Part shown: piece after piece, positions 23,815 through 39,163 of the stretch | How the letters are laid out: every line of letters starts with the position of its first letter | How positions within the stretch are numbered: the stretch's first letter is position 1 | DNA from: a virus | Length of the DNA: 39,499 nucleotides | Strand: one strand, 5' to 3' | IMG/VR virus record: IMGVR_UViG_3300047551_002958 | Coordinates: 1-39,499 of that record | Made by a program: the position numbers and the translations under genes | The notes under the pieces: generated by a model | What the model was told of the DNA's origin: nothing | Seen by the model: the letters and a program-made list of their open reading frames with translations, nothing else | Databases searched by the model: none

Positions 23815-24366
23815 ATGGAAACAAAAAAGCTTTCTAATTTTTCAGCGGATCCTAATAATGCCAATATGGGAACAGATAAGGGCCGCCGTATGCTCTCCCA
23901 GAGTCTTCAGGATCTAGGCGCAGGACGTTCTATTCTGGTCGATCGGAATGGTGTCATCATTGCCGGAAACAAGACCGCTGAGGCTGCTATTGCTGAGGGG
24001 TTAGAGGACGCGATCGTTGTCCAGACTCAGGGGGACAAGGTTGTGGTGGTACAGCGAACAGATTTAGACCTGACCACAGACCCAAAGGCAAAACAGTTAG
24101 CCATTGCAGACAACCGGATCGCAGAGATTGATTTGTCTTGGGATGCTGAAGCCCTTCAAAAGCTGGCAGAAGAAGTTGATTTGTCGTGGTTGGAAGTAGA
24201 CGATAATTTCTTTGAAGAATTAGAAGCGATGGAGAATGAAGAATTAGATGATCAAGACTATGGAGAACCAGAGGAAAGCTCAAGTAAAGAAATAGATACG
24301 GATGACTTTGAATTTGATTGTAAATGTCCCAAGTGTGGTTTTGAATTTACAAAGACAAACTTATGA
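23815..24366 (+). CDS. ParB-like protein with C-terminal zinc ribbon
   Basis: A 183-residue protein. Residues 1-110 have a ParB/Sulfiredoxin-like pattern (NMGTDKGRRMLSQSLQDLGA, RSILVDRNGVIIAGNKTAEA, KAKQLAIADNRIAEIDLSWD). An acidic linker follows, and residues 169-174 CKCPKC begin half of a zinc ribbon. ParB-like proteins often precede DNA methyltransferases in phages, possibly guiding or regulating them. The gene overlaps the C5 methyltransferase start by ATGA (24363-24366). Confidence 0.75.
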   Translation: METKKLSNFSADPNNANMGTDKGRRMLSQSLQDLGAGRSILVDRNGVIIAGNKTAEAAIAEGLEDAIVVQTQGDKVVVVQRTDLDLTTDPKAKQLAIADNRIAEIDLSWDAEALQKLAEEVDLSWLEVDDNFFEELEAMENEELDDQDYGEPEESSSKEIDTDDFEFDCKCPKCGFEFTKTNL

Positions 24367-25364
24367 ATCCTCACGCATGGTATCTTTCTGACCTTAAGAA
24401 TATCCCCCAAAACGGTGTCAAGGTGTTTTCTACCTTTGCCTGCGGTGGAGGCTCTACAATGGGCTATAAACGAGCAGGGTGTGAAGTCATTGGAGCTAAT
24501 GACATCGATCCAGAGATGGCTTACCACTACAAGCTCAACCACAAACCTAGGTATTATTTCCTTTGTCCTATCCGTGACTTACTCACAAAAGATTTGCCTG
24601 ATGAATTGTTTCATCTAGACATTCTAGATGGTTCGCCGCCTTGCTCAACATTCAGCATGGCAGGCAGTAGGGAGAAGGCATGGGGGAAAGAAAAGCATTT
24701 TAGGGAAGGTCAGGCTAAACAAGTCCTGTCTGATTTGTTCTTTGATTACCTTGATTTAGTAGACCACTTAAAGCCCCGTGTTGCCATTGCTGAAAATGTA
24801 AAGGGCATGATTCTAGGCAACGCCAAAGGCTACACCAAAATGGTGATGCAGCGATTTAGAGAAATTGGCTATCGTCCTCAGTTGTTCCTTGTTAATGCTG
24901 CTGATTGTGGTGTTCCTCAGAAGCGAGAGCGAGTATTCTTCTGTGCTTTGCGGGACGATATTAATAAACCTAAGTTAGTGCTAAATCCTAAACATAAGTG
25001 GGTTGGGGTAAAAGAGTGTACCGAGGATATAAGAGACCTTTCAGAGTTTCGACTTGTTACCGCAACTAATCACCGACATTTACAAAAAGACTGGGCAAAA
25101 AAACACCCTAATCATACTTGGGATTGGAATATCAATAGTCCTTCTCCCACATTAGTTGCAGGTGGTGATAAAGAATTAGTAAATAAATCAATGCAGTTTA
25201 CAAGCCTTGGATTTGCTGAATACAAACGATTAGGCTCATTCCCTGATGACTACCAAGCCAAGACTGACAAAATAGGCAAATACATGATCGGAATGTCAGT
25301 GCCGCCAAAGATGGCTGAGGCTGTAGCCAGGGCGGTGATTGATCAATGGCTAGTGGTAAAATAG
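24363..25364 (+). CDS. C5-cytosine DNA methyltransferase
   Basis: A 333-residue enzyme that would transfer methyl from SAM to cytosine C5. Motif I is VFSTFACGGGSTMGYKRAG (21-39). Motif IV is GSPPCSTFS with catalytic C94. Motif VI is ENVKG (144-148), motif VIII QKRERVFF (186-193), and the C-terminal motif X is IGMSVPPKMAEAVAR. The target cannot be read from sequence; CGATCG is an obvious hypothesis because the genome is rich in it and cyanobacteria methylate it. The stretch 24017-25571 itself has no CGATCG, suggesting later acquisition. Confidence 0.92.
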   Translation: MNPHAWYLSDLKNIPQNGVKVFSTFACGGGSTMGYKRAGCEVIGANDIDPEMAYHYKLNHKPRYYFLCPIRDLLTKDLPDELFHLDILDGSPPCSTFSMAGSREKAWGKEKHFREGQAKQVLSDLFFDYLDLVDHLKPRVAIAENVKGMILGNAKGYTKMVMQRFREIGYRPQLFLVNAADCGVPQKRERVFFCALRDDINKPKLVLNPKHKWVGVKECTEDIRDLSEFRLVTATNHRHLQKDWAKKHPNHTWDWNINSPSPTLVAGGDKELVNKSMQFTSLGFAEYKRLGSFPDDYQAKTDKIGKYMIGMSVPPKMAEAVARAVIDQWLVVK

Positions 25365-25633: not shown

Positions 25634-26083
25634 TTATCGCACTTCTAGGGAGTTGTCGGGGGTATCTCCGAGCCACATGAATGTTAGTTTTCCTACCTTC
25701 ATTCCGTGATCCAAGACGATCGGGGTGTGTTGGCTGTAGTTCTTGAGTGCAAAGGTTAAGTAGCCGCCACTGTGCAGCGCTTCTTCGGTGACAGTGCTTT
25801 CTCCTAGGAGTCCCTGTTTGACTAGGGTTTCCCGTATTTTGAACTGAGCGGTAATGAGTGTTGGCAGTTTGAAGGTTTCGATCGTCTGTGCAATTAAAAA
25901 TTCACCAGGGTTTAAGGTGTAGGTATCCACATGGCACAAGTCAATTTTTTCGCCGTGTTCCGTGGTGAGGTAGCGGCCTAGTCTGACTTCGTAGGCGCTA
26001 GGGTTCAGGAGTTCTGGCAGGTAGGGTTTGATGCCTTCCTTGTCGGCAACTTCAGTCAGAATTTCATGGTCTGAAAGGATCAT
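25634..26083 (-). CDS. dCTP deaminase/dUTPase-fold protein lacking catalytic Glu
   Basis: A 149-residue protein with the trimeric deaminase fold pattern: LNPSAYEVRLGRYL, GEFLIAQTIETFKLP, and GGYLTFALKNYSQHTP. In the true Dcd at 28715 the matching segment is GFLTIEISN, whose Glu is the catalytic residue of the family; here Ala stands in that place. It may therefore be a binding or regulatory paralogue rather than a deaminase. Its 5' end overlaps the NlpC/P60 gene by 20 bp. Confidence 0.7.
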   Translation of the reverse strand: MILSDHEILTEVADKEGIKPYLPELLNPSAYEVRLGRYLTTEHGEKIDLCHVDTYTLNPGEFLIAQTIETFKLPTLITAQFKIRETLVKQGLLGESTVTEEALHSGGYLTFALKNYSQHTPIVLDHGMKVGKLTFMWLGDTPDNSLEVR

Positions 26084-26710: not shown

Positions 26711-26782
26711 GCTGGTGTAGCTCAACGGTAGAGCATCTGTTTTGTACTCAGACGGTTGCAGGTTCAAGTCCTGTTACCAGCT
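26711..26782 (+). tRNA. tRNA-Thr (TGT)
   Basis: A 72-nt cloverleaf: acceptor GCTGGTG/TACCAGC, D arm GCTC-AACGGTA-GAGC, anticodon loop TTTGTAC with TGT at 26743-26745, T arm GCAGG-TTCAAGT-CCTGT, discriminator T, no CCA. It reads ACA codons. The anticodon stem has a T-T mismatch at its loop-proximal pair (TCTGT/TCAGA). The last 9 nt overlap the 3' end of the Dam gene on the opposite strand. Confidence 0.88.
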
Positions 26783-28276
26783 TAGGCTCAACTGTCCACA
26801 CATTGCAACCCTTACAGCGCTTGGGTTTCGCTGCTTTCTGACTAACAATAATTCCGTTCTCTTGGGACGGGTTCGGGTCTTACTCGATCGCGTTATGCCT
26901 GCTGAACTGGCCACTGTCTCTTTATAGTGCCGTTCCCAATGTTCCTCTGGGTAGAGTTCGTCTAGCAGGGCATCGGGATAGTAGGAGACGATCGCCCCGG
27001 CACACTCCACAGAGTTCAAACATTCCGCTAGTCGATGGTGCAGTTCCAGGTTGTAGTCCTTACCCTGCTTGGCGTTGTGTGAGTAATAGCCTTCTGCCCC
27101 AATGTAAGGGGGATCGCAATAAAAAAGAGTCTCAGGGGTAGCCCATCGCTCGATACATTTAATGGCATCGTCGCATTCTAGATACACTTTTTTGAGCGCG
27201 TCTAAGTCCCGTTGAAGGTGCGGCGCTGCTGTGAGGATACGGGAGGGGAGGGTGTTCCAGTTACCAAGGTTTTCCTTAAATTCATCGTGTTTTTCGTAGT
27301 ATCTATTCACCCCCCAACTATTACCAGGGTTGTACGTAAAACTCTGCCAACCATCAACCAAATACCGTCTCACCCACTCCACCCGGATATCCACGTCCGG
27401 CTCTACAAACGCTCTACCCACGGCGTTTAGACAGGCGTAGGGGTCTAGGGTTTCTGGGGTGCCTAGGTGCGGCGCGGCAGTGAGAATACGGGTGAAGAGG
27501 GTTTCAAATGTTTTAGGGTGATTTCTTGCGCCACCAATATGGATACCATTCTCTTTTCTATCCATAAGGTTATCTCTTGTAATAGCAAATTCGCCTCCGA
27601 TGTCTCCCCTGCCACTCTGCCAGCCATCAACCAGATACCGTCTAGCGTGTTCGAGTCGGGCTTCCAGTTCATGGTCGATCGGTTTTTCGCTGAGGGCTAA
27701 CTGAATCAGCGTTTCTGCCATCTCCAATAGTTCCTGGTGCGGTGTCCCTAAATGCTTTGATGCCGTGAGGATACGGGAGGGGAGGGTGTGCCAGTCCTTG
27801 TTTAGACTTTTTGCGCCACCCAAGTGTTTTCCGCCAACATAGCAGTCCGCTAAATTATTTCTTTCTGCACACCATCCGCTACCGTTTTGCTTTTGAAAGC
27901 TTTGCCAACCATCGACCAAATATTTTTTAGCCTCTTCAACCCTATCCCCCTCTCCCCGTTGCTGTGCCTCCTTGTGTTCTGCCCTGCTGTAGGGGGTGAA
28001 GTAGACAGAATAAGCTAACAGTTCGGGATAGTCCCTGACTGTTTTGTAGAGGTTCATTATCTCTTTGTCAGCATCGTTCAGCACAGCCCGAAAGTGCCGT
28101 CCACGGGCTTTGACTTGCTCAGGGATGCCGTCATTAAGTAGCGAAAAATAGACGGCGGCACTCCCACAAAAGGGCTCACAGTAGATAGAAAATTGGTGCT
28201 GTTTGATAAATTCCAGTATCCAAGGTGCGAGGCGGGCTTTGCCGCCAACCCTTCCAATAACGGGTTTAATTTTCAT
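26774..28276 (-). CDS. Dam-type (D12) N6-adenine methyltransferase with triplicated unit
   Basis: A 500-residue enzyme; D12-class Dam proteins are usually about 270-300. Motif X/I: VIGRVGGKARLAPWI (6-20) and YCEPFCGSAAVYF (32-44). Motif IV: FYCDPPYIGAEGYY with DPPY at 388-391. Between them one unit is present three times, at about 117-178, 210-274 and 301-355, with the shared marks RRYLVDGWQS and LPSRILTAAPHLGTP. In normal D12 enzymes this part is single and includes target recognition. It probably methylates adenine in a short site; GATC lies inside the abundant CGATCG. The 3' end overlaps tRNA-Thr antisense. Confidence 0.88.
   Translation of the reverse strand: MKIKPVIGRVGGKARLAPWILEFIKQHQFSIYCEPFCGSAAVYFSLLNDGIPEQVKARGRHFRAVLNDADKEIMNLYKTVRDYPELLAYSVYFTPYSRAEHKEAQQRGEGDRVEEAKKYLVDGWQSFQKQNGSGWCAERNNLADCYVGGKHLGGAKSLNKDWHTLPSRILTASKHLGTPHQELLEMAETLIQLALSEKPIDHELEARLEHARRYLVDGWQSGRGDIGGEFAITRDNLMDRKENGIHIGGARNHPKTFETLFTRILTAAPHLGTPETLDPYACLNAVGRAFVEPDVDIRVEWVRRYLVDGWQSFTYNPGNSWGVNRYYEKHDEFKENLGNWNTLPSRILTAAPHLQRDLDALKKVYLECDDAIKCIERWATPETLFYCDPPYIGAEGYYSHNAKQGKDYNLELHHRLAECLNSVECAGAIVSYYPDALLDELYPEEHWERHYKETVASSAGITRSSKTRTRPKRTELLLVRKQRNPSAVRVAMCGQLSLSW
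26792..26819. repeat. 28-bp direct repeat, downstream copy
   Basis: CTGTCC, three bases, then CATTGCAACCCTTACAGCG. The same 28 bp with two mismatches lies at 28302-28329, so the repeats bracket the Dam gene 1510 bp apart. This copy encodes the Dam C-terminal residues AVRVAMCGQ. Confidence 0.9.
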
Positions 28277-28714: not shown

Positions 28715-29296
28715 CTAACACTTTGCTAGGGTTACTTTTTCCTGTTGCTGTTGGTATTTGCCAGAGCGATCGTCATAGGTAATGTCGCACGGTTCCCCCT
28801 GAAGGAATAGTGCTTGAACTATCCCCTCATTGGCATAAATACGGCAGTCTGCACTGGAAGCATTCGATATTTCGATCGTCAAAAACCCCCTCCATCCCGC
28901 TTCACCAGGGGTTAGGTTGGCGATAATGCCGCAACGTGCATAAGTGCTTTTGCCAATGAACAGACAGGTAATATTTTTGGGAATATCCAGGTATTCCATG
29001 GCCACGCCCAACCCATAGGAATGAGCAGGCAGAATAAAGTAGTCCCCAAACTCGTCAGTGTGCAGTTCCGCTTCCTCCAGGCAGCGATCGTCAAAGCGTT
29101 TAGGGTTTACCACTAACCCTGGTACCTTCCTGAACAAGAGGAATTGCTTAGGGGATAGCCGCAGATCGTAACCGTAGGACGAGAGCCCAAAGGAAATAAC
29201 AGGGGTAGACTCTGCAACCCTGACTAGGGACGGTGTAAACGGAACGATCGCGCCTTCGAGTGCAATTCGTCTAATTTGGGAGTCATTTAGGAGCAT
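28715..29296 (-). CDS. dcd: dCTP deaminase
   Basis: A 193-residue dCTP deaminase converting dCTP to dUTP, or directly toward dUMP in bifunctional forms. Marks: LSSYGYDLRLS, FILPAHSYGLGVAMEYLDIP, the active-site IGKSTYARCGI, TPGEAGWRGFLTIEISN with catalytic Glu, and the closing YDDRSGKYQQQQEKVTL. Length and order match the family. It supplies thymidine precursors during phage replication. It is coupled to the zinc-ribbon gene downstream and separated from the hub gene by 2 bp. Confidence 0.92.
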   Translation of the reverse strand: MLLNDSQIRRIALEGAIVPFTPSLVRVAESTPVISFGLSSYGYDLRLSPKQFLLFRKVPGLVVNPKRFDDRCLEEAELHTDEFGDYFILPAHSYGLGVAMEYLDIPKNITCLFIGKSTYARCGIIANLTPGEAGWRGFLTIEISNASSADCRIYANEGIVQALFLQGEPCDITYDDRSGKYQQQQEKVTLAKC

Positions 29297-29298
29297 TT

Positions 29299-30558
29299 TT
29301 AGCCGGCATCGATAGGTGTTGAGGCGAATTTGTCAGGAGTTGGGATATACGGCTCCCCCTGGAAATTCACCACGTTATTGTACCTGAAGCAGTTTCGCAG
29401 GGTTTTGTCACACCCTGTGGCTATTTGCAGTGTGGTTCCGGGGGCAATGTTAAATGGGGTGGACTCAAACAGAACGATCGTGTTGTTGGAGTAGCTGGCA
29501 ACCTCCCGGATCACCCCGGCATTGTTGCCACTGGTAAAGGTGACAGTGCCATAGGTGAACCATCCGTCGGGGGCGTTGGTGTAGTTAGCCCCGGTTCCTG
29601 GCAGTTCAATAATTCCATAGAATGCCTCGGATCCGGTGACATCGTTCCACTTGCCAGGGGCAAACGTGGTATAGAGGTGAACTTTTGTCTCGTTATTGCC
29701 TAGGTTGTTTGGTTCTCCGGTATTCCAGTTTGTGTAGGTTACGGGTTCACCACTACTCCACTCAAACTGCCCCGTAATGCTGTTTTTGTAGAGTCCGATC
29801 CACAGTAATTCCTCTCCACTGTTGTCAAATAGCGACAGCAAACGATCGTTTTCAGCCTGGCTGCGTACTGTTACAAGGTGTCCCCCTAGTCCAACGGCTT
29901 CTGCTTCGGCATCGGCCCACGACTTAGCGGTACTGGTAAGGGTGATCGTTGTTTGTACTGGCGGGAGGACAATATTGGCATTGCTCAGGGTGAAGGTGCG
30001 ACGATCGGCTGCTGCGACAACGCTCAGGTTGTAGGTGTAGTTGGCAATATTCACACCACAGCGACTATCCCCAAACCTAGCGCGGCACAGCTTTGAGGTA
30101 ATGGATCCGACTTTGTTGTTTAGCAGGTATTCAAACCCCCTGGCCTCGAACGTGTAGCGAAGGTTGGAGCGTGTCACCTTACCCAGTATGGCCCGGTACA
30201 GGACGATATGCTTTGCAGGGTTTTCGGTGAGGGTGGTAGGGAGATCCAAAACATTTACCAGAAAGCATTCCAACCTTGCAAAGTCATACAGGCCACGATC
30301 GAGATCCGCTTCGGTAATGGCGGGGGAGTCTAGGATCGCTTCTAGGCTTTGGTTTTGGCTATTCCAACCTAGTTCAGTGTCTACGGCGCTGGGGCGGTAA
30401 CCGCCTAGGGCTTGGTAGGTTCCATCAATGTAGAGATCTCGATCGTAGCTGGTGAGCCGCAGGACAGTGTTATCGGCCCGGGTGAGTTTCCAACACCACG
30501 TTAGGCATTGGGTGGGGCTGGCTAGGGCTGCTTTTAGGTTGGCGTGGAGGTTCAGCAT
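29299..30558 (-). CDS. Tail hub protein (DUF2163-like) with inserted C-type lectin domain
   Basis: A 419-residue protein. Residues 1-180 match the gp84/DUF2163 N-terminal pattern (SPTQCLTWCWKLTRADNTVL, RFGDSRCGVN near 161-170). The C-terminal 325-410 is the BR0599-like part (WFTYGTVTFTSGNNAGVIRE, GCDKTLRNCFRYNNVVNFQG). Between them residues about 203-319 are a C-type lectin fold: SWADAEAEAVGLGGHLVTVR, LLWIGLYKN, EPNN (282-285), KWND (303-306) and FYGIIEL. EPN and WND are the calcium and sugar ligands of mannose-type lectins. This suggests a host glycan-binding hub. It is divergent from the tape measure gene. Confidence 0.85.
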   Translation of the reverse strand: MLNLHANLKAALASPTQCLTWCWKLTRADNTVLRLTSYDRDLYIDGTYQALGGYRPSAVDTELGWNSQNQSLEAILDSPAITEADLDRGLYDFARLECFLVNVLDLPTTLTENPAKHIVLYRAILGKVTRSNLRYTFEARGFEYLLNNKVGSITSKLCRARFGDSRCGVNIANYTYNLSVVAAADRRTFTLSNANIVLPPVQTTITLTSTAKSWADAEAEAVGLGGHLVTVRSQAENDRLLSLFDNSGEELLWIGLYKNSITGQFEWSSGEPVTYTNWNTGEPNNLGNNETKVHLYTTFAPGKWNDVTGSEAFYGIIELPGTGANYTNAPDGWFTYGTVTFTSGNNAGVIREVASYSNNTIVLFESTPFNIAPGTTLQIATGCDKTLRNCFRYNNVVNFQGEPYIPTPDKFASTPIDAG

Positions 30559-30604
30559 TTTGAAAGTAGGAATAGAATAAAGAAACTAATGCGATCGGTA
30601 GGTT

Positions 30605-33600
30605 GTGGATATGGCAGGGACTCAAAAAACGTATCAGGTGCGGTTTGAGGTTAGGGGGTTTAGTGCGGTTGCCAAGTCTTTTTCTGCACTGAATAAGGAC
30701 ATGGAGCAAACCCTAAAATCCTACCGAACGATCGGAAATGTGCAGGCTAGGGATAGTCGGGGACGCTTTGTTAAAAACCGCTTTGCTTTGAGTTCAAATA
30801 ATAGGTTTTCTCAGTCTGAAAATTCTACCCGTTTCTCCTCACAGGGCGGGCTACTTTGGGATAGGCAAAGGGGAGCATCCGTAGAACGCACGGCGATCGA
30901 ATATGCTGCAAATATCCAGGGCAGCATTATTGGGGAACATATCTCTAAGGCGCTTAGGGTTACCAGCGATCGTCGTCAAAACATTGCGGGAACCAGAACG
31001 GTATTAAGGGACGCTTTTGAATTTGCCCTAACGTCTACTATGTCTGGAGCCTTTCAGAGAATGGGGGAGGCTGCTATTGCTGATCCTATTCTGAATGCAA
31101 TGCGACAGGCATTCCAGGAAAACCGCAAACTAGAAAAAAGAGGTATTCATCCAGCAATTAAAGGCGGTTCTTCTGGTATTGGCTTTGCTGCCAAATCAGT
31201 CGCTTTTGGCGGACTCCAATTAATTGGATCTAAATTCTCTGAAGTTCTTACAGAAGACTTAATGAGAGGCTTCAAAAGAGGATTTGAGAAAACAGGAAAG
31301 AACCGGGCGGTTAATTTTGAAAAACTTGGGGAGTCTGCCGGTAGTTTTGTTTCGGATCCATTGGCAGTAGCTAAAGACAAAATCCGTGAACGCAAAATTT
31401 CTAAACTAGATGATTCACTTGCGGAAGCCGAAAAATTATCTAGGGATCAAAAAGTCACAGTAAAACCTGGAAAAGTTAAAGTTTTTACCGTGGGAGGACT
31501 GGGCGGATCAGGTATTGCTGACTATAACGAAAACTTAGCAAGAATTGGTATTAATCCAGATATTGCGGATATTGAAAACACCGAAAACCCCCACACTGGG
31601 ACAAATATCCCACTTTCTGATCCACTTCGATTTGCGTCTGATGCGATTCTCAATAAATACGTCACAAATGAAATTGTAAAAGGGCAAAACCAAGATGCAA
31701 TTAATCTAGCTGCTAAAGTCATTGCTGCAAGGCGGGAAAACCCAAATGCAAGGATTAATCTGTTAGGACATAGCGCTGGCGCTGACATTGTTCAACAGGC
31801 TATTGCAATTTTAGAAAAAGGTGGCTATGCAGACAATGTTCAGGGTATTGGTGTAGGTGGAATTAATATTGGCACAGGCTTTGATGTCAAAAATTTCAGG
31901 AATATTGCGGGAGACAATGACTATGTGGTTAAGGCTACATCAGCGATCGGCAGCCAGCCAACCGCGACGGACTATGGGCAAGTCTCGAAACTAGGAGATC
32001 ACAAGCTCAGAACCTATTTTGCCCATCCTGATTTTATTAAGTCCCTAGATAAAGATTTGCAGCCCACCGCTGTCGCTAAAATTCTGGACAATTTTTACGA
32101 GGACATGATCCAGGAGTATGGCAATGAAGCCTTGCCGGTTCTGGAAGAAGCATTAAGGGATGGTCTAAAATTTGCAGGAGAATTTGATCGGAATTTTGGT
32201 AACGAAGAAACCGATCGCATTAATCAGGTTTTGGCTAAATACCATCAACAACTGGGTATGCCTCACCAGGGCATTAATGCCAAAGCTAACCCTGCATCGA
32301 TCGTTAATCGTCAGTTTGAACGAATAGAGGAAGTTCGATCTCTATTTCGAGGAATCCATCAACAACCGGATCGGGGTTCTCCTCAGCAAAGTTACCAGGT
32401 AATGAGCCCGGATCCGCTGAGTCCGTTGAACTACCAGTTCATGCAACCGGATCCGCTTAACCCTGTACCGCTGACTACGAATGCGGTGAACAGGGTCGAT
32501 CAAGGCAATGTGGATCAACAGTTCGATCGTGTTGCGGAAATGATGGCGGGAGCCAAGGAACGGGCGCGGGCAATGTTGCCATCCCAGTTGGCAGCACGGC
32601 AGCAAGGCGCTCCAGTGCGATCGAATGATGTACCTCAGTTGGTTGTGGCCTATCAACAGAAAATTATTCGATCGTTCAAGGAAAACCTAAAGGCTCAAAT
32701 GGAGTCTATGTTTGCCTCAATGGAGGCGTTAGCACAGTCTCCAACGGATGATGGGGGAGATGAGTTTGCTAACCAGTTACGGCTGACTATTCGGCAACGG
32801 GCAAAGGGTATTTTTGCAGCTTATACCCAGGCAATTCGGGCACTAGAGGGGGTTTCGGTTTCGGCTGATCAGGTAGATAACACCACCTTGGATCAGGTGA
32901 AGACAGACTTTAACGCGATCGTTTCTGAGTTTCAGCAGGCAGTGACTGAGCGGGTAGTGGAGACGATCGGGACGTTGGATGCACTGGCTCAGTCCTATGC
33001 GTCCGAGGCTCCGGCGGCAGTGGCGGGCGCTGGTGGTAACCGTTTTGTTGAGGACTTCAACGCGCAGATCGACGATCAGGTAATGACGTTCCAGGCAAAC
33101 CTAGATCGGTTGTTTGGGCAAGTTTTGGAGACTAACGCCAAGAAATTGGACGATCTGGCTGCGTTGCGGGCGCAAATGGGGTTACCCCGGTTAGCCTCTC
33201 AGCGATCGTTGGGCGATCGATATGGGGAGCGGTTACAGGGGTTAATTCAGGGGGCAAAAACTTCGGCGGGGCAACGGATCCGAGGGCTAATTCCGGGCTT
33301 TGAAAGCATGGATCCCAAGCAGCGATCGGAGCAATTGAAAAAACTGCGTTCCGAAATGGCGGCGGGGCTTAACGAGTTCCGGCGGCAGATGGCGGCGGGA
33401 GATAGTGCCACGGCCCGCAAACTGGGAGAGTCGTTAGTGCAGCGTATTGAGGCGGTACGGGCGGCTTACGACGATCTGAGTAAGAACTTTACTGGAGACA
33501 AACGGGCGATCGGAGGCTCCAAGGCTCAACTCACGAAATTATCTAAGGAGTTGCAACAGGGGTTACAGAGTATTGCTGCTAACGCCACTGGTAGTCTGGC

Positions 33601-36600
33601 GGGGGAAATTGAGAGCGAACTGAATGCGATCCAGGCGGCGGGCGCGGGCATCGGTGATGCACTCATTGAAGGAACAGAGGACAGCTTAGAAATATCCTCT
33701 CCGTCTAAGGTGTTCCAACGCATTGGCGCAAACATTGCCAGAGGTTTAGGCATTGGGCTACGGGAAAACCTGGAAGAAGTCAAACAAGATCTCACCGATA
33801 ACCTGAGTGAATTAGGCGAAGAATCTGCATTTCAAGCCACGCGGGTAGTCAACAAATTCAACGACACGGGAGGATTCCCAGGCTTAGACGAAAAGGCGGC
33901 TGAAGGTATTGACTTAGTGCGCGATCGTTTAAGTGGGTTAGCTGAGGAATTTCCCGCCATTGGGCAACTGGTGCAGATCGCTACACAATTTGGGGGATCG
34001 ATCGCTCTACTGATGGGGGCATTCTCCGGGCTAGGGAAGATTCTACAACTGTCAGGGTTTAGCACCTTCATTAGTGCCATTGCCACATTGCCAGACACCG
34101 CAGCGGACGCGGGACGGGAACTGCAAAGCCTTGCTATTGCCTTTGAGTCTGTCACTGGCTCCAGTGCCCTGTCCGCTGACGCAATGGAGTATATCAGTCG
34201 GACTGCTGAGAAATTTGGGATCAGTATCCGTAGTGCAGAAGAGGCCTATTTGGGGCTAGTGGCTACCACTAGGGGGACTGAATTAGAGGGACTGCAAACC
34301 GATACCATTTTTGAGGCTTTTGCCCAAACCGCTGCATTACGCGGGCTAGATGAGCAGCAACAGCAGCAAATGTTTACTGCGGTGCAACAGGTTTTAGGAA
34401 AAGGAAAGTTGAGTGCTGAAGAGGTGCGGGGGCAATTAGGGGAAATTCCAGCACTGGCCTTTCAGCAAACCCTGGCAGAGTCCCTGGGGGTGAACCTACA
34501 GCAGTTGGACAAGCTTTTGAGCAGTGGCAGTCTCCAGAGTGACGCGATATTTAAAGTGGCTCAACAGTATGCCTCTGCTAACGCTCAGATGGCAGGCAGC
34601 GCTGAAACTGCACAGGCAGCGATCACCCGTTTAGATAATGCCGTCATCAAGCTTCAGCGATCGTTTGGTTCTCAATTCTTAGAAATTCAGCGGAAAGGTG
34701 CCTTATTTTTTGCCGGGGCACTGGAGAAATTAGCCGGAGCCGCAGAAACGATCGTCAAGGTTTTCGGCACAGGCTTAGTCGTGGTTTTGGCAGATGTGGT
34801 TCTCAAGTTTTTTGCGTCCCATTTGGCTACAAAATTATTGAGGATAGCGCTTGTGGCATTGGGGAATGCCATTGCAAAACTAGGGCCATTACTAAGACAA
34901 ATGGCTGGGGGCATTGTGGCGGTTAACGTGGCGATCGAGCTTTGGAATGTTTCGCTCAAGCAGCTAGAGTTAGACGATGCTGAGAAGGGCATTTTGAACC
35001 TGAGCGATGCTTACACAAAACTAGGCGGATCGATCGAAGGTGTAACTGCCTCAACAGAGAGCATGAAAGTCGGGCTTCGTGAAATTGTAGAAGCCGCCCA
35101 GTCAGGGAACATTGGAAAGGCGCTTAGGCTGTTTGTTACCGCTGGCGCTGATGAAACGCGGGAAGACCTGAGTGGACTTGGGGGTTTCCTGGAGCGGTTT
35201 AAGATTCCCGGTGGGGGTGCGCTCCGGCGTTTCTTTGGCACCAGCACTGCTGAGGCAGATCTAAACCGGCGGTTAGCGTTTGCCAGCGCGGGTGGGGCCA
35301 CCTCTGCACAGGTACAGGTGGATCAGCAGCAGGCCATGAAAAGTGCCGATCGCATGATCCAAATTGAGCAGCAAATGGTAGCTATCAAAACCAGACGCGC
35401 CAGCCTGACAGCAGCGGATGGGGAGGAGCTAGAGCGTACCAATGAACTGCTGAAGGAATTGCGAGAGGAGTATAACGGCTACCTCCAACAGGTTTCTAAT
35501 GCACGGCAAAATACCCAGGCTCAGTTGACAGCTAGTAAGGCGATGCTAGACAGGCTCCGGGCCGATCGTGCAAAGGATGGGTTGTCTGAGCAGGAGAAGC
35601 GGCGGTTGGATGCCGCTATTCAGGAAACGGAACAGAATATCAGGGTTCTGGAAAATGGGCAGGACGCACTAGATCAGGCGGTTTCCCGATTGGATACCAG
35701 CCTGTCAACGTTCACTACCATCTTAGCCCGGACAGCGGAACGGATCGCCAATATTCGGGAGCGGCTGACGAATGAATTTAATGAGTATCGTGCTGCACTG
35801 ATCAAAACTGGACTAAGCCTAGGCTCTGGCGATCAAACGATCCGACTGGAACTCGATCGGGCGGACTTCCGGGAGTTGGAGGCATGGATCCGCACTCTAC
35901 GGCAAGAGTCTCAGCGGTTAACTGAGCAATTACAGGGGCCGGACTTACAACCCCAGGTTGAAAACCTACGGAAAGCGGCATTGGAAGAAAATGTTGAGTT
36001 CGGATCGGCATTTTTCCAACGGATAGCCAACGATACCAGCGCTGAGAACCGGGAAGCGGCTCAGGCACTCCTCCAACTTCAGGATCTGGAGAACCAAATT
36101 GCTGAAGGTGAGGTGCAATTAGCCCAAAACACCCTTCAGGCACGGCAAACGATCCGGGATCTGAACCGACAGATCGCAGACTTCATTCAACAGTTGACCG
36201 CTGAACTGGATGGGTTGTTAGTAGATCTGAGGGAGCAGGTTCTGAACCTAGCCCAAAGTTTGCGGCGCACCCAACTCCAAAAGGCGATCGTTGGGGGCTC
36301 CAAGGGGCTGTTTGGTAGTGTGGTGGGGAGTGTTCAGGGGTTCCTGGATGCGGCGGGACAGTTGGCGCAACAATATCTAGGGCAGGAGCGCAGAAAGCTA
36401 GAGTTTGAGCAGAAAAAATACGATCTAGGAACCCGTATGCGGGAGTTCATCGACTCGATCGGTGGGGCTACGGACGCGGTTCAGAAGTTTATCCAGGCGT
36501 TGGGTGGAGGGAGCGCTGGTGCTGCTGTACCATCCACAGCTAGAGGGGGTGAAACATTCCTAGGCATTACGGGGAACTCAGGAAGAAGTACGGGGCCACA

Positions 36601-39163
36601 CCTGGATATTCGGAAGCGTGGGGGCGATCGGCGTTTAACTGCTGCTGAGATCGATCGTTTCCGGGTAGATGGCAAACCATTGAGCAGCTATCCGATCACC
36701 AGTGAGTTCGGGCCGCGGTGGGGAACTCACCACGGAGGAGTGGACTTTGGAACGTCTGTAGGGCAAAAAATTACAACCACGGTTCCTGTAGAGCGGGTGA
36801 GCATGAGGGAACCCAGCCAGACCGGGGGCGGTGGTTATGTTGTGGATGTGCTGTTTGCTGACGGGTTGGAGGTGAGCCTACTGCACCTGAGCCCCGATAT
36901 TAAAACCGCAGGGGTAGGGCGATCGGCGGGGGGCTCGTCCCAAGGCGTTGCTAGGGTTTCTGGCAACAAGCAACTTACACCAGGACAGCTAGTTCAAGTT
37001 GCGCGGGCTGCGGGCTTTAGTGGTGACGACGCGGCTATCATGGCTGCTATTGCGATGGCAGAGTCTTCTGGAAACCCACGGGCACACAACCCTAATTACC
37101 CCGATAACAGTTATGGGTTGTGGCAGATCAACATGCTCGGAGGTATGGGGCCGGAGCGTCGAGCAGCATTTGGAATTAATAGCAATGAGGCATTGTTTGA
37201 TCCTGCTACAAATGCGGCAGCCGCTAAAAAAGTCTTTGACTGGCAGGGTTTTGGAGCGTGGAGCGTTTACAGCAGCGGTGCTTATCGGCAATTCCTAGAT
37301 GAAACTCGATCGGCTGCTAATGCTCCAGTTGCACCAGGGGCTACGGTTCCTCGTGCTGAAACTGCACAGGCTCAGGAACTGGCAAACAATATCCTAGGCA
37401 CTCAACGCAGCATGATCGCTACTGGGGAGGGTGAGCTATCGGTAGGCGTAATGAGCTTGCAACAGCAAGCACAGCAAACTATTCAAGAGATTCAGCAGTT
37501 TTTTGCTGACACAATGATAGATCTCTCACAGTCGTCTACCCAACTCACCAACCAAGTTCGGAACCTAGCACAACCGGATACACTCGAAACCCAACTGCGA
37601 TCGTCCCGTGAAACCTTTACCGGAATTAACCTGCAATTCAGGGATCAGATCTTAAAGGTTGGCAACTCCATTACTGAGCTAGAGGGGCAGATAACCCAGT
37701 ACGACAAGGTTCTGCAACAGCTAAAGGAATCTAACGATCCTTTAGATCAGGCACAGGTACCCGTACTGGAGGAATCGATCCGGTTGGCCAAGGTTTCCTT
37801 ACCTCAGCTTCAGGCTATGAAGTCGGAATTGGAGCGGGTACAGACTCAGGTACAAACCACGGCAGACAAAGAATATCAGTATCTTGCAGAAAAGATAAGG
37901 CTTGAAACTGAAAACGCACAGATTCAAATTGAACTAGAACAGGCTCAAACCGCTCGAAATTCAAAGCTAGAGACTGAACTGTCTATTCAACAGGAGCGTA
38001 ATAATTACGCGCTGCAAATCCTGGATAATGAGCGGGAACTGTCAGGACGGCCGGATGAATTGGCTCAACGGCTAGAGGCACTGCGAAAACAGGAGCAGAC
38101 TCGGATCAAAATCCTGCAACTGCAAGGGCAGGCACGGGAATTAGAGTCTAAACAGTTTGTTGCTGAACTAGACTCTCGTATTGCTGAAGCGGAAGCAACT
38201 CAGGCAGAGTCCTTTGGTGGCGATAACGGTATTTTTGGGTTTAGAGCTACAGAACTCCGAGAGCAAAACGCACTTCTTCAGGAGCAGTTGCGCTATGAGC
38301 AGGAGATCCTGGATCTGCGTATTCGCTATGTGGAGCAGCCAGACGTTCTAGGCGATATGCTGTCCAAGGCTGAACGCCTCAATACTCTAAACCTGCAAAA
38401 TATTGACAGTCAATTTAAGTCCCTAGGAGAAACGATCGCGGGGGTTGCTGAGGAAAACCTGGGGCAATTTTTTGAGGATATTTTTAGTGGAACTAAGTCT
38501 GCTGGTGAGGCGTTCCGCAATTTGGCTCAGAGTATTTTACGGTACTTTGCACAGATAGCGGCCCGCAATTTGACGCGGGGTATTTTCAGCAGGTTGGGCA
38601 GTATTTTTGGCGGTGCTTTTGGGGGTGGTGGCGTTGGCGCGTTTACGTCTCCCGGTGGTTGGAGCGGTTTCAAGTACGGTGGTACTGTTCCCAACTATGC
38701 TCAGGGTGGGCGGGTTCTGCCGGAGTTCGTTTCTGAGTTGTTAAAGGAGGCGGTTCCGGGGGTGAAAACCGCGTTTATCCGGGAGGGTAGTAAAGCGGCT
38801 CTTGGGGTGTTTACGCCTGGGGAGGAGGTTCTGAGTCTACGGACTGGGGAAGCTCAACGCTATCAACTCCTGAAGAAGTCTCTGGGAGATAACCCACTGC
38901 AAAGTATTATAGCGGGTTCTTTTGCCTTTGGCGGGACGGTGGGCATTAACCCGGAAATCCTGAGTGGTAATTTTGCTCTCAATTCACCGCGCCTGCCTAT
39001 AAGCAGTGTGGTACAAATGGGAGGGGGAAGATCGTCTTTTGGGGGGAATGTCACTATCAACTACGAAGTGAAAACTCCAGACGCTAACTCGTTCAGACGA
39101 TCGCAGTTTCAAATTGACAGAGACGCAACGATCGCGGCTCAGAAAGTATTGAACCGTAAATAG
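30605..39163 (+). CDS. Tape measure protein with lipase-like, M23-like and transglycosylase domains
   Basis: A 2852-residue protein (GTG at 30605; ATG two codons later at 30611 is equally likely). Order: helical N-terminus; alpha/beta-hydrolase domain about 285-480 with nucleophile elbow GHSAG (S390), D439 in GDNDYVV and H466 in GDHKL; long helical Gln-rich parts; SPSKVFQRIG motif near 1032; tape-measure domain about 1180-1370 (VLGKGKLSAEEVRGQLGEIP); hydrophobic segments about 1115-1150 and 1383-1445; M23-like domain about 1985-2100 (H1999, H2043xxxD2047, H2094); lytic transglycosylase domain about 2120-2220 (E2153 in AESSGNP, NSYGLWQIN); coiled coils; Gly-rich C-terminus. It sets tail length and is ejected into the envelope. 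At about 0.15 nm per residue it implies a tail near 400 nm. Confidence 0.93.
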   Translation: MDMAGTQKTYQVRFEVRGFSAVAKSFSALNKDMEQTLKSYRTIGNVQARDSRGRFVKNRFALSSNNRFSQSENSTRFSSQGGLLWDRQRGASVERTAIEYAANIQGSIIGEHISKALRVTSDRRQNIAGTRTVLRDAFEFALTSTMSGAFQRMGEAAIADPILNAMRQAFQENRKLEKRGIHPAIKGGSSGIGFAAKSVAFGGLQLIGSKFSEVLTEDLMRGFKRGFEKTGKNRAVNFEKLGESAGSFVSDPLAVAKDKIRERKISKLDDSLAEAEKLSRDQKVTVKPGKVKVFTVGGLGGSGIADYNENLARIGINPDIADIENTENPHTGTNIPLSDPLRFASDAILNKYVTNEIVKGQNQDAINLAAKVIAARRENPNARINLLGHSAGADIVQQAIAILEKGGYADNVQGIGVGGINIGTGFDVKNFRNIAGDNDYVVKATSAIGSQPTATDYGQVSKLGDHKLRTYFAHPDFIKSLDKDLQPTAVAKILDNFYEDMIQEYGNEALPVLEEALRDGLKFAGEFDRNFGNEETDRINQVLAKYHQQLGMPHQGINAKANPASIVNRQFERIEEVRSLFRGIHQQPDRGSPQQSYQVMSPDPLSPLNYQFMQPDPLNPVPLTTNAVNRVDQGNVDQQFDRVAEMMAGAKERARAMLPSQLAARQQGAPVRSNDVPQLVVAYQQKIIRSFKENLKAQMESMFASMEALAQSPTDDGGDEFANQLRLTIRQRAKGIFAAYTQAIRALEGVSVSADQVDNTTLDQVKTDFNAIVSEFQQAVTERVVETIGTLDALAQSYASEAPAAVAGAGGNRFVEDFNAQIDDQVMTFQANLDRLFGQVLETNAKKLDDLAALRAQMGLPRLASQRSLGDRYGERLQGLIQGAKTSAGQRIRGLIPGFESMDPKQRSEQLKKLRSEMAAGLNEFRRQMAAGDSATARKLGESLVQRIEAVRAAYDDLSKNFTGDKRAIGGSKAQLTKLSKELQQGLQSIAANATGSLAGEIESELNAIQAAGAGIGDALIEGTEDSLEISSPSKVFQRIGANIARGLGIGLRENLEEVKQDLTDNLSELGEESAFQATRVVNKFNDTGGFPGLDEKAAEGIDLVRDRLSGLAEEFPAIGQLVQIATQFGGSIALLMGAFSGLGKILQLSGFSTFISAIATLPDTAADAGRELQSLAIAFESVTGSSALSADAMEYISRTAEKFGISIRSAEEAYLGLVATTRGTELEGLQTDTIFEAFAQTAALRGLDEQQQQQMFTAVQQVLGKGKLSAEEVRGQLGEIPALAFQQTLAESLGVNLQQLDKLLSSGSLQSDAIFKVAQQYASANAQMAGSAETAQAAITRLDNAVIKLQRSFGSQFLEIQRKGALFFAGALEKLAGAAETIVKVFGTGLVVVLADVVLKFFASHLATKLLRIALVALGNAIAKLGPLLRQMAGGIVAVNVAIELWNVSLKQLELDDAEKGILNLSDAYTKLGGSIEGVTASTESMKVGLREIVEAAQSGNIGKALRLFVTAGADETREDLSGLGGFLERFKIPGGGALRRFFGTSTAEADLNRRLAFASAGGATSAQVQVDQQQAMKSADRMIQIEQQMVAIKTRRASLTAADGEELERTNELLKELREEYNGYLQQVSNARQNTQAQLTASKAMLDRLRADRAKDGLSEQEKRRLDAAIQETEQNIRVLENGQDALDQAVSRLDTSLSTFTTILARTAERIANIRERLTNEFNEYRAALIKTGLSLGSGDQTIRLELDRADFRELEAWIRTLRQESQRLTEQLQGPDLQPQVENLRKAALEENVEFGSAFFQRIANDTSAENREAAQALLQLQDLENQIAEGEVQLAQNTLQARQTIRDLNRQIADFIQQLTAELDGLLVDLREQVLNLAQSLRRTQLQKAIVGGSKGLFGSVVGSVQGFLDAAGQLAQQYLGQERRKLEFEQKKYDLGTRMREFIDSIGGATDAVQKFIQALGGGSAGAAVPSTARGGETFLGITGNSGRSTGPHLDIRKRGGDRRLTAAEIDRFRVDGKPLSSYPITSEFGPRWGTHHGGVDFGTSVGQKITTTVPVERVSMREPSQTGGGGYVVDVLFADGLEVSLLHLSPDIKTAGVGRSAGGSSQGVARVSGNKQLTPGQLVQVARAAGFSGDDAAIMAAIAMAESSGNPRAHNPNYPDNSYGLWQINMLGGMGPERRAAFGINSNEALFDPATNAAAAKKVFDWQGFGAWSVYSSGAYRQFLDETRSAANAPVAPGATVPRAETAQAQELANNILGTQRSMIATGEGELSVGVMSLQQQAQQTIQEIQQFFADTMIDLSQSSTQLTNQVRNLAQPDTLETQLRSSRETFTGINLQFRDQILKVGNSITELEGQITQYDKVLQQLKESNDPLDQAQVPVLEESIRLAKVSLPQLQAMKSELERVQTQVQTTADKEYQYLAEKIRLETENAQIQIELEQAQTARNSKLETELSIQQERNNYALQILDNERELSGRPDELAQRLEALRKQEQTRIKILQLQGQARELESKQFVAELDSRIAEAEATQAESFGGDNGIFGFRATELREQNALLQEQLRYEQEILDLRIRYVEQPDVLGDMLSKAERLNTLNLQNIDSQFKSLGETIAGVAEENLGQFFEDIFSGTKSAGEAFRNLAQSILRYFAQIAARNLTRGIFSRLGSIFGGAFGGGGVGAFTSPGGWSGFKYGGTVPNYAQGGRVLPEFVSELLKEAVPGVKTAFIREGSKAALGVFTPGEEVLSLRTGEAQRYQLLKKSLGDNPLQSIIAGSFAFGGTVGINPEILSGNFALNSPRLPISSVVQMGGGRSSFGGNVTINYEVKTPDANSFRRSQFQIDRDATIAAQKVLNRK

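Follow-up and report, generated by a model that had tools for sequence, protein, structure and literature searches.

Enzymes that cut the bacterial cell wall are well established as parts of large phage tail proteins. In CwlP (YomI), a very large and probably tape-measure-like tail protein of the Bacillus subtilis prophage SPbeta, a muramidase (lysozyme-type) domain is joined to an M23 DD-endopeptidase (PMC5380687; PMC9662197); its host is Gram-positive, its peptidase is listed as an ordinary M23 and no alpha/beta-hydrolase has been reported in it. A lipase/esterase-type enzyme accompanies an endopeptidase in another virion protein, Gp44 (Tal) of the staphylococcal phage phi11 (PMC5380687), but this is a baseplate or tail-tip protein and not a tape measure, it contains two enzymes only, and its hydrolase is of the SGNH type and not an alpha/beta-hydrolase with a GHSAG motif.

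The disposition of tape measure proteins (TMPs) has been described in several tails. In 80alpha the protein runs from the neck, which contains its N-termini, to the baseplate, where its C-termini lie (PMC11661146). For JBD30 it has been proposed that the C-terminal portion exits first and that the N-terminal bulk forms a channel through the membrane (PMC11445458). As for the M23 peptidases, they are defined by two zinc motifs, H(x)nD and HxH (PMC9662197), and non-catalytic LytM factors are known within the family (PMC8416486).

The tape measure analysed here combines three domains of envelope-enzyme type: an N-terminal serine hydrolase, a circularly permuted M23-like domain and a lytic transglycosylase-type domain. 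A first-pass annotation had proposed such a combination, and a single unbroken ORF, TMP_3 and SLT matches above their cut-offs and independent profiles bear it out. The domain borders that it gave (270-490, 1970-2110 and 2110-2230) were good to within about 20 residues, and CwlP provides the precedent for its statement that peptidoglycan hydrolases occur in tape measures.

Genomic context and host

The window, that is, the whole stretch of DNA analysed, corresponds to a virus contig from IMG/VR, 39499 bases long; since genes for terminase, portal, capsid/protease, hub and tail are present, its context is that of a tailed phage. Among the tail genes, and adjoining a baseplate hub gene on the opposite strand, a very long protein is encoded:

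30605..39163, + strand: tape measure protein gene (2852 aa; start at GTG 30605 or ATG 30611; TMP_3 and PHROG tape-measure families)
34100..34666, + strand: TMP_3 tape-measure core (residues 1166-1354, Pfam)
34730..34894, + strand: hydrophobic, membrane-segment-like stretch (residues 1376-1430, Kyte-Doolittle scan)

The ORF comprises 2852 codons with no internal stop and opens with GTG, the ATG two codons further on being an equally possible start. In Pfam its product matches TMP_3 (PF20155) with 80.8 bits against a curated cut-off of 41 (E 1.4e-22), and several PHROG tape-measure families match as well. The hydrophobic stretch lies between the hydrolase and the wall-enzyme domains along the chain.

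The tape measure and hub genes diverge across 30558-30605, the head genes and several tail genes being on the opposite strand. The hub gene (29299-30558, -) encodes a phiJL001 Gp84 N-terminal domain and BR0599; between these two halves a C-type lectin domain (E 2e-14) is inserted, possibly for receptor binding. The window also contains two dCTP-deaminase-like genes (25634-26083 and 28715-29296, both -) and two DNA methyltransferase genes (24363-25364, +; 26774-28276, -).

The cyanobacterial HIP1 repeat has CGATCG as its core. This hexamer occurs 168 times in the window (positions 1-39499), evenly spread, against 5.6 expected, a 30-fold excess. The full HIP1 octamer, GCGATCGC, is absent from the window against about 12 copies expected from the flank frequencies, and is present in the related contigs L002, L008, L009, L171-L179 and L187. 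Other palindromes (ATGCAT, CACGTG, CAGCTG, CATATG, ACATGT and ACGCGT) are likewise missing from the window. The phage seems to follow the CGATCG habit of its host while avoiding one octamer, which is perhaps a restriction site; the two methyltransferases are perhaps related to this CGATCG/GCGATCGC pattern. Because of the CGATCG excess, and because the hydrolase has its nearest relatives in the Aphanizomenon phage vB_AphaS-CL131 and in contigs where full HIP1 is abundant, the host is, to judge from the DNA, most likely a cyanobacterium.

The N-terminal hydrolase

The first of the three domains lies close to the N-terminus, with a predicted catalytic triad:

31400..32104, + strand: alpha/beta-hydrolase (serine-esterase-like) domain (residues 266-500; profiles, alignments and an AlphaFold core with alpha/beta-hydrolase fold matches)
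31772..31774, + strand: Ser390, predicted nucleophile of GHSAG (388-392), invariant in alignments A3, A6 and A11
31919..31921, + strand: Asp439, predicted triad acid, invariant in A3, A6 and A11
32000..32002, + strand: His466, predicted triad base, invariant in A3 and A6 (in A11 the L173 row ends before this column, which cannot be aligned there)

The GHSAG hydrolase of the first-pass annotation proved to be real. A profile built from the domains of the contigs L008 and L009, the window being excluded, scores 84 bits at residues 266-485 of the window protein, whereas the best of 200 shuffles of this protein reached 5.5 bits; the same profile scores 86-87 bits in the tape measures of L171 and L173. 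Asp439 and then His466 follow Ser390, which is the triad order of alpha/beta-hydrolases, and these residues are conserved. In the window protein itself the domain stays below the Pfam cut-offs (Cutinase, 16-20 bits, 20.1 for the domain, against 25.9), while its homologue in phage CL131, gp048, passes them for DUF676 (34 bits, cut-off 20.3) and also for Lipase_3. Moreover, the family profile matches the fungal cutinase structure 4psc (E 5e-5).

In the AlphaFold model of the hydrolase (mean pLDDT 64, core 80-94) the GHSAG elbow is formed as strand, serine and helix. The fold search that had been suggested as a check gave as best PDB folds mostly cutinases, dienelactone hydrolases, a feruloyl esterase and a lipase, with probabilities up to 0.99 and E values of 0.03 or worse. 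From profiles and alignments, membership of residues 266-500 in the alpha/beta-hydrolase superfamily can be regarded as established, and the corresponding fold as likely. The types that the domain resembles (cutinase, DUF676, Lipase_3 and thioesterase) span lipases, esterases and thioesterases.

Among 50,697 phage records the hydrolase matched CL131 only. When GTDB genomes were scanned twice with alignments of the hydrolase, no relative was confirmed by tblastn, so the distribution of the hydrolase in cultured genomes is undersampled. Pattern searches of IMG/VR, at limited depth, gave zero matches with the single hydrolase or the whole tape measure, and alignment-based patterns were needed. 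In the literature searched, no description of a conserved serine hydrolase in a tape measure was found, wall-cutting tape measures being already known.

The wall-enzyme domains

Two adjacent domains of wall-enzyme type are found in the C-terminal part of the chain:

36557..36928, + strand: circularly permuted M23-like domain (residues 1985-2108; profiles, AlphaFold core, BFVD matches)
36599..36607, + strand: HLD motif, with His1999 (catalytic-type) and Asp2001 (at the third zinc His of M23), invariant in alignment A7
36731..36745, + strand: HxxxD zinc motif, His2043 and Asp2047, invariant in A7
36884..36886, + strand: His2094 in LLH, corresponding to the second catalytic His of M23, invariant in A7
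36995..37264, + strand: lysozyme-like / lytic transglycosylase domain, SLT_3 (residues 2131-2220, Pfam and comparisons)
37061..37063, + strand: Glu2153, predicted catalytic acid of SLT, aligned to the conserved lysozyme Glu and kept in homologues

The lytic transglycosylase of the first-pass annotation is readily recovered in Pfam, with 62.3 bits for SLT_3 (cut-off 27, E 6e-17) and 32.8 bits for SLT (cut-off 21.3, E 5.5e-8), and with Glu2153 conserved residues 2131-2220 are predicted to form a domain of this type. Relatives at 60-75% identity occur in many phage proteins; at the loci retrieved, these proteins showed no hydrolase and mostly no M23-like match.

The neighbouring domain departs from the M23 metallopeptidase that had been expected. 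An M23-like domain is present, since a homologue profile, used as for the hydrolase, scores 124 bits at residues 1985-2122 and the family profile matches solved M23 peptidases (best E 1.6e-9), but its motifs are swapped and HxH reads HLD, so that activity cannot be assumed. In alignment A7, whose 11 rows comprise cyanophage, Moraxella and Acinetobacter tape measures, HLD stands in the place of HxH in 11 of 11 rows, and His1999, Asp2001, His2043, Asp2047 and His2094 are invariant throughout. The segment GITGNSGRSTGPHLD (1987-2001), which is terminal in ordinary M23, here precedes both SEFGPRWGTHHGGVD (2033-2047) and LLHLSP (2092-2097). His2094, whose equivalent lies upstream of HxH in ordinary M23, follows the HxD motif because of the permutation. 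Furthermore, in searches against solved structures the same M23 chains are matched by two pieces of the window domain whose order is swapped.

The permutation is also apparent when the domain is doubled. A single copy covers positions 2-54 of Peptidase_M23 (21.8 bits). When two copies are joined head to tail, the match becomes one continuous stretch that crosses the junction and spans positions 2-88, with 42.2 bits in total; until doubled, the domain stays below the Pfam cut-off. The Moraxella and Acinetobacter copies act like the window domain, and in the unpermuted control, the canonical M23 of Synechococcus phage RN05-S, the match stays within one copy. Since Asp2001 stands at the third zinc-binding His and the order is swapped, the domain is best classed, on these alignments, as M23-like and not as an ordinary member of the family. 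In the literature searched, no account of such a permutation of M23 was found.

The structure was modelled for the M23 part alone, without SLT, and the core reached a pLDDT of about 90. For this model no M23 was among the PDB matches listed by Foldseek, a result to be expected for a permutation and also for a fold other than M23. The search against viral folds (BFVD) returned cyanophage virion proteins, including Synechococcus P60 gp33, at whose C-terminus the HLD motif is present and the histidine of HxxxD is missing. The last part of this podovirus protein (L180, 22777-25779) is a degenerate version of the permuted HLD domain.

It was considered whether the conservation of HLD could be mere search bias, given that one search pattern contained it. 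This reading was rejected: L012-L017 (SGAHLD) do not fit that pattern and came from a second one, and they share HLD with P60 gp33, which was found by fold.

Recurrence of the design

The combination of a hydrolase with wall enzymes recurs in the tape measures of other IMG/VR contigs:

L171 (IMGVR_UViG_3300002835_000436): hydrolase, TMP_3, M23 and an amidase-like segment, the latter read by eye
L173 (3300044626_001580): ORF of 3226 aa with hydrolase, TMP_3, an unpermuted M23 that reads HLH, and SLT as a weak match
L179 (3300034093_005754): tape measure of 3765 aa, the upstream part matching the L171 type, with M23 and a weak SLT match
L187 (IMGVR_UViG_2909829363_000002): hydrolase, TMP_3, NlpC/P60 (weak) and glucosaminidase

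L171, L173 and L179 share with the window an N-terminal hydrolase, TMP_3 and then M23 with SLT or amidase-like wall enzymes, but their M23 has HxH and the usual order of motifs; the remainder of the tape measure is about 20% identical to that of the window, as found outside the domains for L171 and L173. The hydrolase of L187, also N-terminal, is 36% identical to that of the window and is again followed by TMP_3 and C-terminal wall enzymes, here NlpC/P60-like and glucosaminidase in place of M23 and SLT. The entry number of L187 suggests an isolate genome. The layout is thus found in two further tape-measure lineages with cyanobacterial-looking DNA.

Across these divergent proteins the hydrolase keeps its N-terminal place (about residues 266-503 in every case), and the wall enzymes differ: M23 with SLT, M23 with an amidase-like segment, or NlpC/P60 with glucosaminidase. 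Ser390 and Asp439 stay invariant once the other tape measures join the alignment (A11), and the serine is kept in the variants AHSQG and GTSGG. As judged from the predicted domains, a hydrolase that stays in place beside wall enzymes that are exchanged is a real, recurring design.

In CL131 and in L008/L009 the same hydrolase family is found in separate proteins encoded just upstream of the tape measure gene; those of CL131, gp047 and gp048, adjoin the tape measure as genes but differ from the window in being separate proteins with Cys-rich repeats and up to three hydrolase copies, one lacking the serine. The permuted HLD domain is present in the tape measures of Moraxella phage Mcat23 (52% identity) and Acinetobacter phage R3177 (about 37-38%), which show no hydrolase or SLT match.

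Tandem hydrolase copies split by CKxGxxCGxxCIPKxxxC repeats were also observed in cyanophage proteins (L002, 11848-17283; L008, 7131-14119; L009, 2001-6191). In the largest of such proteins the last copy is without the catalytic serine (AHGYGG, AHGMGG).

Proposed role and alternative explanations

Taken together, these data are read here, with somewhat more confidence than doubt, as a cyanophage tape measure with a built-in entry kit in which the wall enzymes act first and the serine hydrolase later. In the tail, the protein would set tail length, probably in an extended form. At infection its C-terminal part would exit first and bring the SLT and permuted M23-like domains into the periplasm, where the former would cut glycan strands and the latter peptide cross-links, and the opened peptidoglycan would give passage to the tape measure and the DNA. 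The N-terminal hydrolase would exit later, arriving at a membrane or inside, and would most likely cleave ester (or thioester) bonds in lipids of the membrane, or in other envelope components that carry acyl groups, at the point where the channel or the DNA passes through a membrane. We infer the orientation, ejection and wall cutting from other phages, the orientation being borrowed from 80alpha, T5 and JBD30, and can only infer the activity and substrate of the hydrolase. Three folded copies of the 25-kDa hydrolase domain would be expected to be too large for the tail lumen, and unfolding or an unusual location would therefore be needed. Also against the entry-kit reading are the mean pLDDT of the hydrolase model and the E values of its fold matches, the replacement of a zinc-binding His by HLD and the want of M23 among the listed PDB matches.

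Read as a sequence of events, the proposal of the first-pass annotation would make the hydrolase an outer-membrane lipase acting ahead of the wall enzymes, a picture suggested by the presence of a serine hydrolase and two wall enzymes on one ejected protein. The wall part of its proposal that one protein would attack both lipid and wall has precedents, but no lipid specificity can be read from the sequence and the hydrolase types concerned include esterases and thioesterases. Nor is the order of lipid and then wall supported. Solved tails put the C-terminus at the baseplate, so that the hydrolase would follow the wall enzymes out of the tail; as the last to exit, it is unlikely to be what first breaches the outer membrane, and we regard this version as improbable, although such an exit would be compatible with a membrane role. 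It is somewhat less doubtful, but still unlikely, that the hydrolase is no envelope enzyme at all and serves in tail assembly or processing, or as a non-catalytic binding module near the tail neck. Its position at about 280-500 is nearly fixed in divergent tape measures, the N-terminus of the 80alpha tape measure is at the neck, and the loss of the GxSxG serine in one tandem copy of CL131 and its relatives (AHGYGG) indicates that non-catalytic use exists in the family; against this, every tape-measure copy seen retains Ser and Asp, and also His wherever it could be aligned, including those with AHSQG and GTSGG.

A more substantial doubt, which we would still place on the minority side, concerns the permuted M23-like domain: with the third zinc ligand lost it might be inactive or merely bind the wall, leaving SLT alone to cut it. 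HLD and not HLH is found in all copies, P60 gp33 has also lost the HxxxD histidine, and non-catalytic LytM factors are known in the M23 family (PMC8416486). However, the invariance of five residues across cyanophage, Moraxella and Acinetobacter tape measures fits an Asp-using metal site and not decay. Finally, the whole arrangement could be a fusion created by assembly error with a GHSAG motif arising by chance, given that GxSxG motifs are common and that the window protein alone passes no Pfam hydrolase cut-off. The score of the independent profile against that of the shuffles, and the same layout in two further tape-measure lineages, speak against such an artefact, whose probability we consider negligible; the recurrence of the layout refutes it.

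Implications

Beyond the entry-kit reading of the window protein, a wider proposal may be advanced tentatively, and with less confidence: that there is a class of cyanophage tape measures with a dedicated serine lipase/esterase at a fixed N-terminal place and exchangeable wall enzymes, in which one ejected protein would process both the wall and a membrane (or another acylated target, for example cyanobacterial galactolipid), the peptidase of the window being a circularly permuted M23 with a His-Asp-Asp metal site.

The permuted H-x-D variant of M23 is undercalled by ordinary searches: in the window it passes the Pfam cut-off only after doubling, and copies in many phage tails may therefore have gone unnoticed. 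With regard to phage entry, these tape measures bear on the question of how the DNA and the tape measure of siphophages pass across Gram-negative membranes, and the fixed place of the hydrolase across divergent cyanophages makes this question testable with one active-site mutant.
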